DNA of 64,000 nt, taken from NCBI RefSeq assembly GCF_036669915.1, contig NC_089313.1:8836193-8900192 (forward strand), in the 5' to 3' direction. The DNA comes from Pocillopora verrucosa (Eukaryota > Cnidaria > Anthozoa > Scleractinia > Pocilloporidae). Position numbers and translations under genes: made by a program. Below the pieces are notes generated by a model that had not been told where the DNA came from, did no database searches, and worked only from the letters and a program-made list of their open reading frames with translations. This document shows, one piece after another, positions 2,556 through 5,621 of the stretch. Positions within the stretch are counted from its first letter, which is position 1, and the number at the start of each line of letters is the position of its first letter.

Positions 2556-5500
2556 ATGGTGTCCTGCACTGTGCTCCGTTGTTTTTGCCTTACCCTTATG
2601 TTTGTTCTTGTTGCGCTTGCTTCAAATGGGTAAGAATCTTCCTTTCTGTCCCTCAAAATTCAAGTTATTAGATTTACACACTGGATTTCCACTTAATTAT
2701 TTCACCGAGAATTGTATGTTCTCTTTTCCTAACCAGGTGCAAATTTCCCAGTGAACTGGAGAATAAACACAAGAGGTGAACTGAAAGAATATCACAGATT
2801 TCTAGTCTATATGAAATAAATCTAAGCTTATATAGATAACACGCGAATCCAAGGTGGATGACGCCCGCAGCCGCTCATTCTTCCAGAAATTATCGTTTGA
2901 AAGAACTTCATCTTTTATCGTCTGAAAGATCCGCTTATTTTCCTAAAGGAAATAATTGCCAGAAAATGTATATAATAGATGGTGGATACAGCCAGTTTTG
3001 GCTTTTTGCTTTAATTTTTCTCTTCCCTTGAGCTAAAATATTTTTCTCCGCCAGGGTTCAAGGAAAGGAGAGCGTAAATTTGGCCTGCGAGTTTCAGATT
3101 TTAATCATTTTCCTTTATAATGTAGGATCGAAACTAATTAAAAGAACGTCATTAGAGAAAACAGTTATCTTAAATTGCAACAAAATTGAGCTTTGGTCGC
3201 CTAAAAGATAGTTCAGTTTTTTCTCCATCAAACACTAAAAACTGAATAAAAAAGGTTTATTTGCAAAGAAAGTGGTTACTTAAAGGGAGAATAAGGTGAA
3301 GGGTTTGGCTCTGATGATGACTTTCACTAAGGTTGTCGAAGGATCAGTCACTCCCTTCGAAAACAGTGTCTCTCAAGATTGATCTCACCCGGACGATAAG
3401 GCAGGACGTTCCAGCTTTAAGAGAACGTTGACTGCACCATAATCATAATTTAACCAAAATTGTTCATCGATCTTAGCCTGAAAAGCAAGTTTAAGGAGCT
3501 TAAGGATAACTTGACGAACACCCGCTCAGCAATAAAGGCAAAGGAAAAGGAAAATCTGTTGACCAAAAAGGTTAGTACAACTTCTACCCTATTGATAAAC
3601 TTTGGTTGCTCAGATCATAAAGCAACAGGCCCAACTGTTATAGAGCTTCTCTATCCTCTGCTTGTTAATTATGTCTGTTAAGTTGTTATTGTTGTTGGTT
3701 TTTTTCCTTTTTTGGTTTTCAATTTTTTGACGATACAGATACTACTGGAAAAGATGCAGGCAATCACCACCAAGTAAGACATTGTTTTCATTTATGTTAT
3801 TTGCGATGGATTCTTTATCTCTGAATTGGTGAGATCTTCAAGGAACAGTTTGCACATCGTGAGAACAAATTACAAATATTAAGAGGGAAAACAATTTACA
3901 GATATGCTTTGCTTAGGTCTGGTTCGAATTCACACCTTTATGACTGACTGTTGATTGAGACTTAAACTTTTTAACGCCGTAGACATAGTGGGTAAGTTGT
4001 AATGCTTCTTTTTCAAGGGAGGGGAGTTAGTCTAAAAGTAAAATGTATGCATCCACCTGAAGTGACTTTCCTTTCTACCAAACACAGCATTGTGGCCTTG
4101 GAAAATGATACTCAAGATTTCATGGACAAACTGGAAAATTTCTGTGATGTCTGCCCAAAAGTATGTGATGTTTTAGAGGCCAATTTTTTAGCGAGTCGGG
4201 AAGGCCAACAAACGAGAAACACTGTTGAATAGCCTTTTTTGCATATCCCCGTGATCGCTCTGCCATGCTTCATTGCGCTCCTGGGTCAAAAATTTTGTGG
4301 TTCCATCAAAACGCGTCCGTTTTATCGTTCGGTGCTTGACCCAATGACCCAGCTTTTCTGGTCAAGATGATTAACGAGCTCAACCTTGATTTAGATACCG
4401 CCAAGATCAATATCAAGGTTTACTTTATACAAGAAAGTGTATTTTGTTTTTCGCCCGCACTGATTATGTAGTTCGCAAGTGATTGACAAGTTCTATTTAT
4501 CTCGAAGCAGCTGAAGAGACAAAATTGCGTGTGAATAATTTGACTCCCGACCATTTTTTGGTGTAATGACAGATATAAACTAACTTTTTGTTTCTGTGTG
4601 GTATGTTATAAACTTCAGTGGCGAGGTAAATATCCACAACTTTCACCGACACTAAAGTGAAAGTTGTGGATATTTACCTCGCCACTTCGCGTCCCGGTTA
4701 ATATCCACTACTATTCACTCCCAGTTCACAGAACAAGTAATGATTTTTTTCTTGCCCATTTACAGGATCGTTGCCAGTCCATTTTGAATCGAAATAATAA
4801 CCGGTAAGCGGAATCTCACTGTTCAGCACCAGAAAAGTACCATAATTATGCCGGATTCAGGCTAGTTTCAAACCATCTTTTGGTTTTAATTTCTTTGTAG
4901 TAGGCTATAATACCAAAAAAAATATTCCTCGATTGAGGTAGCTAGCAGAATAGTGCACGAGAAATTTTGATGTCGCCTCAAAACCGGTCTTAAGAAAAAC
5001 AGTGAATTCTGGTAATTATTGCTTTGAGAAAAACAAAAAAAAAAGAAGAGCGGAATAAAGGTTGGCAAGTGTTTACCAAGGAATAATGCCCATTGCCTCA
5101 CAGACCATAGCGGCCGAGCCAAACATCTAATGATATGTTTTAGGGAAAACGTTTGGTTGTTACGTGTAAACTGGGAAGTACTAAATTCAGATGCAACTTG
5201 AAACCGAAAATAGCCACTTATTTAGTATAATAATGATGCTTTTGCAAAATTCCAACAGCCTGGAGCGAATGAAGGAAGTTGGAGATATGATTAAGGAGCG
5301 ATACGACAAAATAGACGCCGAGGAGTCTGGTCAGGTATGCTAGTGAAAAGTGTTACGGGAAAATTTACTGATTTTCCTGTGTGTGTTATTCGGAACATAT
5401 TTATTCGTAAACTTTCACATTTAACCATTTCAAGTCCTTTCATTTTAATAAATCAAAAAATGCATAAAAGCCACAGTAGCTTTTGAATAGATTTTTGTTG

Positions 5501-5621
5501 TTACTCGCTTTCATCGTATGCACCTGCTTGTCGGCACTTTAGTTATTTATTACATGGTTTTTTTTAGGTAAATATAAGTGTTAATGGTCTTTCTGGAAAC
5601 ATTGGCTTTCATGGTAGATAG
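2556..5621 (+). CDS. Secreted small coiled-coil protein, eight short exons, unknown family
   Basis: Proposed exons are 2556-2629, 2737-2775, 3477-3570, 3739-3773, 4088-4160, 4766-4803, 5259-5334 and 5568-5621 (TAG). Each has AG before and GT after, all phases agree, and the sum is 483 bases, or 160 residues plus stop. Residues 1-25 form a signal peptide with a hydrophobic core (LTLMFVLVALAS). The rest is charged and helical, with heptad-like stretches at about 30-98 and 118-140. It has four cysteines after the signal (26, 100, 103, 108) and three N-glycosylation sequons (N49, N87, N145). No transmembrane segment follows, so it is probably secreted. The start is the ATG that opens the signal peptide. 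I do not recognise the family, and no function is proposed. Intron 5 holds a perfect palindrome, and a related exon lies at 263-338. The model was read by eye, so an extra or alternative exon is possible. Confidence 0.72.
4617..4686. repeat. Perfect 30-bp inverted repeat with 10-base loop (MITE-like)
   Basis: Bases 4617-4646 are the exact reverse complement of 4657-4686, separated by 10 bases. It lies in intron 5 of the secreted coiled-coil gene, well away from both splice sites. Perfect arms suggest a recently inserted foldback or MITE-type unit. A related motif (ggttaatatccac) follows at about 4697, which may be a further piece of the same repeat. Confidence 0.85.

Follow-up and report, generated by a model that had tools for sequence, protein, structure and literature searches.

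The question raised by this locus is whether eight short segments, spread over positions 2556 to 5621 of the window (the whole stretch of 64,000 nucleotides of Pocillopora verrucosa DNA analyzed here, C2:8836193-8900192 of a 353-Mb genome), form a real gene, where that gene ends, and what kind of protein it may encode. The original prediction had joined them into an unrecognised gene for a secreted coiled-coil protein. As proposed, the segments measure 74, 39, 94, 35, 73, 38, 76, and 54 bases, with GT and AG at the ends of all seven introns (phases 2, 2, 0, 2, 0, 2, and 0), and when joined they gave 161 codons including the stop, corresponding to a protein of 160 residues.

The gene, referred to here as A3, turned out to have a public model already. 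Protein searches returned P0001, an "uncharacterized protein [Pocillopora verrucosa]" of 173 aa, to which residues 1 to 143 of A3 are identical. P0001 is placed on a contig of 20,182,140 bases, equal in length to C2, the contig of the window. These residues are encoded by exons 1 to 7 (429 bases, 143 codons), all on the forward strand and without a stop, frameshift, or lost splice site. Exon 1 (2556 to 2629) carries the start codon and a signal-peptide-like segment and has the same length in the sister copies A1, A2, B1, and B2 described below. Exon 2 (2737 to 2775, 39 bases) encodes Cys26 and is followed by exon 3 (3477 to 3570, 94 bases). Exon 4 (3739 to 3773) is a microexon of 35 bases, equal in length in B1 and B2. 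Exon 5 (4088 to 4160, 73 bases) encodes Cys100 and Cys103, exon 6 (4766 to 4803, 38 bases) encodes Cys108, and exon 7 (5259 to 5334) contributes 76 bases. After exon 7 the two models part, as P0001 takes its last exon from 6751 to 6843 on the forward strand and not from the eighth exon of the original prediction. The P0001 model may have RNA support. A separate observation concerns intron 5, which contains at 4617 to 4686 an imperfect palindrome of 70 bases (86% by self-comparison) that is common to all three A copies and is perhaps a small hairpin element.

To place A3 among its relatives, P0001 was searched against the genome, with 28 of 28 candidates scored. This yielded 22 matches, 20 of them in C2:8772561-8843032 at E values below 0.02 and two elsewhere at E values of 8 to 9, and this protein search detected no further copy outside the array. 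A scan across 153,892 bases of this contig resolved six tandem copies on one strand in the order B1-A1-B2-A2-B3-A3, the gene in the window being the last. B1 (C2:8771430-8778042, with exons 1 to 7 from 8771430 and the terminal exon at 8777983) is apparently intact. A1 begins at C2:8779720 and A2 at C2:8811049, with terminal exons at 8782792 and 8814196, respectively. Two B copies look broken: in B2 (C2:8804929-8809366), exon 7 was not found, and the terminal exon at 8809310 was recognized by peptide match only; in B3 (C2:8834135-8837082), exons 5 to 7 were found, exons 1 to 3 were not, and the terminal exon lies at 8837026. B3 extends into the window as the upstream paralogue of A3, with its exon 7 at 263 to 338 on the forward strand.

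The array revealed how the coding sequence of the family ends. A terminal coding exon is present in A1, A2, B1, B2 (again by peptide match only), and B3 and is absent in A3. In A1, A2, and B1 it is in frame with exon 7, follows an AG acceptor, and is of equal length. A nearer block of about 120 bases after exon 7, is common to A1, A2, B1, and B3 at 70 to 75% identity. The peptide that it encodes is VGWSEYHYTGGNDYLFALG-stop in A1 and VGWIQHHYPGGNYYLLALG-stop in A2, and both B1 and B3 have ALLTARHYTGGKDYLGALG-stop; the A1 protein ends in ...HYTGGNDYLFALG-stop. A farther block of about 100 bases, which A1 shares with B1 and B3 at 70 to 75% identity, starts after CAACAG, contains AATAAA, and is likely a 3'-UTR exon. 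Both exons can be located for B3 within the window on the forward strand: the terminal coding exon at 834 to 905 (ALLTARHYTGGKDYLGALG-stop followed by GTAAAC, conserved with A1, A2, and B1) and the likely 3'-UTR exon at 1150 to 1235 (end approximate), which contains AATAAA in a block conserved in A1, A2, and B1. In A3, alignment with its sisters placed a gap junction at 6419/6420, where A1 has 1628 and A2 has 1743 further bases, and this additional stretch holds both the terminal coding exon and the likely 3'-UTR exon. The terminal exon was apparently lost from A3 by deletion; loss is the simpler reading because the B type also has this exon.

A second change at the 3' end of A3 is an insertion. 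After exon 7, an element of 917 bases occupies 5351 to 6267 on the forward strand, starts with TGTTACGG, ends with TCGTCACA (TG...CA), and is flanked on the left (5347 to 5350) and on the right (6268 to 6271) by the target-site duplication AAAG. Among the three A copies it is present only in A3, A1 and A2 having the empty site. At least 39 copies matching at 93 to 96%, most near full length, were found elsewhere among the best 40 of 335 candidates scored. Some of these form same-strand pairs with a spacing of about 5.8 kb (on C4, C12, and C13); the C4 pair has ATTG on its outer sides and a second LTR that appears shortened. TG...CA ends, a target duplication, and dispersed and paired copies are the features of solo LTRs of LTR retrotransposons, and we read the element as such a solo LTR, left by a retrotransposon with many copies.

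What has become of A3 after these events can be read in two ways. It may be a living gene with a new C terminus, its splicing having moved to 6751 to 6843 once the ancestral terminal exon had gone. P0001 is drawn in just this way, as exons 1 to 7 plus this exon, and the frame of exons 1 to 7 is intact. A crude acceptor score also ranks position 6751 (4.4, 14th of 102 AGs) well above position 5568 (-1.3, 62nd of 102), the acceptor of the originally predicted eighth exon; this toy matrix is given little weight because it was built from only six acceptors, those of exons 2 to 7. However, no counterpart of the last exon of P0001 was found after B exon 7, and its alignment with A1 and A2 covers the first 48 bases before a 91-base length difference, such that the exon end differs in those copies. 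In A1, moreover, about 1.4 kb separates the matching sequence from the likely 3'-UTR exon upstream of it. Residues 144 to 173 of P0001 occupy the place that in A1, A2, and B1 is held by the conserved tail. Both candidate last exons of A3 were also compared with window positions 339 to 2555, downstream of B3 exon 7, where no convincing counterpart of either was found (40 and 70 of 200 shuffles reached the scores). We would give the living gene with a new end somewhat less than an even chance.

Alternatively, A3 may be turning into a pseudogene, with a 3' end destroyed by deletion and LTR insertion and with little or no transcription. The missing terminal and UTR exons and the presence of the LTR suggest this, as do the broken appearance of B2 and B3 and the pattern of change among the recent A copies. 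In exons 1 to 7, these copies differ from one another by 5, 7, and 8 bases per 429, with 4, 6, and 6 residue changes, and their introns 1 to 6 differ by 1.7%. The exons are not significantly more conserved than the introns (Fisher p of 0.53, 1.0, and 0.69), and the recent copies may therefore be evolving almost freely, a result that speaks against strong present constraint. On the other hand, exons 1 to 7 of A3 show no stop, frameshift, or lost splice site, and a public protein model exists. We regard decay as a real contender that falls a little short of an even likelihood.

The eighth exon of the original prediction (5568 to 5621, forward strand) lies inside the solo LTR. Window positions 5350 to 5621, bases 2795 to 3066 of the proposed gene, matched the high-copy repeat, and the segment is absent from the sister copies A1 and A2 and contains no conserved part of the gene. 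It was therefore rejected as an exon. The eight-exon, 161-codon structure thus stands for exons 1 to 7 but fails at its end, which falls in a transposon LTR, while A3 lacks the terminal exon that the family conserves. The LTR could in principle have provided A3 with another last exon, perhaps together with a polyA signal, since an AG follows a poly-T stretch there, the resulting end of 17 codons is in phase, and AATAAA occurs at 6062 within the LTR. Against this, the segment belongs to a high-copy repeat, two of the three A copies lack it, and the protein searches returned no protein covering that end. We consider the 161-codon form very unlikely.

Comparison of A3 with the divergent copy B1 provided further evidence on exons 1 to 7. 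The two proteins are identical at 96 of 143 residues (67%), with no indel in 429 bases, and each of the seven exons, the microexon of 35 bases among them, has the same length, phase, and splice dinucleotides in both. Third positions account for 41 of the 96 base differences, and dN and dS were estimated as 0.20 and 0.59 (NG86), 0.24 and 0.37 (YN00), and 0.22 and 0.45 (ML). The conserved structure, the third-position differences, and the dN/dS figures are good evidence of past coding constraint. That exons 1 to 7 are a chance chain of splice-like sites and no gene at all, a suspicion that short exons and the failure to reach the cut-off of any Pfam family might raise, can hardly be entertained when a public model is identical over all seven and their lengths and phases are kept at this degree of divergence. 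On these comparisons, exons 1 to 7 belong to a real multi-exon cnidarian gene, as had been proposed.

We then considered the encoded protein. The first exon is signal-peptide-like as judged by eye, with a hydrophobic run followed by ALASNG|C. The proposed 160-residue protein contains seven cysteines, three in the signal-like segment and four after it; the latter (Cys26, Cys100, Cys103, and Cys108) are conserved. Both the secretion-type first exon and the four mature cysteines of the original prediction are thus seen in the joined segments. The three glycosylation sequons that it listed are also present, at residues 49, 87, and 145, but they are no more numerous than expected by chance (1.43 expected, with 15% of 5000 shuffles reaching 3) and are not conserved between copies: in exons 1 to 7, A1 has those at 49 and 87, A2 has only that at 87, and B1 has none.

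The predicted coiled coil fared unevenly. By a home-made heptad measure, residues 29 to 60 scored above shuffled sequences (47 of 3000 reached the observed value), but residues 29 to 138 did not (2490 of 3000). A fold model computed from the single sequence of P0001, without an alignment and including its non-family tail, is a three-helix bundle (mean pLDDT 73.3, pTM 0.57) with helices at residues 30 to 60, 65 to 100, and 105 to 155 and ten-residue block means of 70 to 91 over residues 31 to 140. Coiled coils, too, can take the form of a three-helix bundle. Foldseek comparison with the PDB and with viral structures gave no match at an E value of 0.001.

The exons had further been suggested to be duplicated pairs. 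Phase and length do alternate along these exons, and, as a description, each pair corresponds roughly to a single predicted helix (exons 2 and 3 helix 1, exons 4 and 5 helix 2, exons 6 and 7 helix 3), although a crude control with random junctions did as well in 8% of cases. No sequence similarity between the pairs was found, however. In pairwise alignments, 1056, 68, and 635 of 2000 shuffles scored at least as high as observed, the nominally low 68, for the first against the third pair, being one of three tests. Alignments anchored at the introns were reached by 364, 2982, and 1964 of 5000 shuffles, and three-sequence profiles aligned over at most five columns.

The tail encoded by the terminal exon showed a different pattern of change. 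Between A1 and A2, 6 of its 57 bases differ, and each difference changes a residue (6 of 19). This exceeds the divergence of the introns (38 of 2278 aligned bases, Fisher p of 0.0006) and of exons 1 to 7 (8 of 429, p of 0.003), an excess noticed post hoc and with p values uncorrected for multiple comparisons. B allowed two of the six to be polarised (T to P and D to Y), each of which was assigned to A2; a loss of constraint on that copy is therefore an equally good reading, and the divergence would fit either that or a diversifying binding tail.

Taken together, we think it probable that A3 is the last of six tandem genes for small secreted proteins, each with a predicted three-helix scaffold and a putative partner-binding tail, and that A3 has lost its tail. 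Exon 1 would serve as the signal peptide, and the mature chain would fold as an up-down-up bundle in which Cys26, Cys100, Cys103, and Cys108 would lie at the same end and may pair as two disulfides. The bundle would then form a rigid extracellular scaffold carrying the C-terminal tail (HYTGGNDYLFALG in A1, HYTGGKDYLGALG in B1), the tail being the putative part that contacts a partner. As a function, an extracellular scaffold with a partner-binding tail is a guess. Lacking the tail, A3 would be either in decay or in the course of gaining a new end from a downstream exon, the arrangement drawn in P0001. A bolder version, which we think unlikely, holds that this Pocillopora-confined family is a disulfide-stapled extracellular three-helix scaffold that arose when a two-exon unit was anciently triplicated, a short and a long exon encoding each helix. 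Between tandem copies the tail would diversify like a recognition ligand, and in other copies it would be lost and replaced by a new end. Reading the letters of the window alone gave seven of eight exons correctly and was misled at the end by a transposon, an error that sister copies in the same genome expose. The same comparison suggests that the public model ends in an exon that has no B counterpart and is only partly shared with A1 and A2, the conserved end of the family being kept in the neighbours.

Apart from P0001, the protein searches (5.8 billion proteins) matched only P0002 and P0003, two fragments that align with this array; the searches depend on shared 5-residue words, and one of them scored the best 7991 candidates by shared words. 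P0002 and P0003 read through introns of the array, TGA being translated as W. Over residues 2 to 143, P0003 and A1 match at 98.6%, and the best matches of P0002 are A3 and A2. Compared with A3, the two fragments differ at 0 of 55 exon codons and at 9 of 247 intron codons, one of the nine being a start codon read as M and three residues at the P0003 frame change being left out. This contrast offers weak support, weaker still because P0003 is nearer to A1 than to A3. No B-type protein was returned from the 5.8 billion, again with one search limited to its best 7991 candidates, and the B gene may therefore be unannotated in that collection. Searches of Pfam, NCBIfam, and PDB sequences gave weak matches only, none at a curated cut-off, in agreement with the earlier statement that no known family comes to mind. 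Rfam gave no match at the gathering score, a phage search gave none, a 30-base DNA pattern from exon 7 had none in the genome-contig and viral-contig collections, and a literature search found no paper tied to this gene. Relatives were met only in Pocillopora-type DNA, the genome searched by exon being that of P. verrucosa itself, and the family is probably lineage restricted.

The remainder of the window contains a single-exon rhodopsin-family receptor ORF of 336 aa on the reverse strand (23459 to 24469; Pfam 7tm_1, E value of 1.6e-32) and a long run of degenerate tandem repeats (28065 to 29646) with a unit of 36 bases and higher orders of 72 and 108 bases. Mobile-element sequences include an LTR-retrotransposon-type ORF with reverse transcriptase, RNase H, and integrase domains (31636 to 34680), two reverse transcriptase ORFs (RVT_1; 39298 to 40902 and 48376 to 50271) that are LINE-like by eye, Helitron-like ORFs in pieces (53764 to 57282, with Helitron_like_N at 53764 to 54771 and a PIF1 helicase at 56105 to 56578), and a DDE transposase ORF (DDE_Tnp_4 plus HTH_Tnp_4; 62621 to 63598), which we take to be Harbinger-like. 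The translations of two further ORFs, at 36158 to 37315 and 37676 to 38848, repeat each other.

Among known proteins, the predicted bundle resembles spectrin repeats, BAG domains, and syntaxin N-terminal domains in fold only, with no sequence match and no match at a Pfam cut-off. Those families are intracellular, whereas the A3 protein differs from them in having a signal-like segment and four conserved cysteines. At the level of the genome, a study of tandemly duplicated genes in coral genomes gives 32.6% of the genes of Pocillopora cf. effusa as tandem duplicates (PMC10236652). These are likewise local copies on one contig; the present array differs from them in alternating two divergent types and in including broken copies. 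A further coral study describes "dark" gene families that are often lineage specific, have no ascribable function, and have arisen by duplication (PMC13044578), and the array family resembles these in its probable lineage specificity, its lack of an ascribable function, and its origin by duplication.
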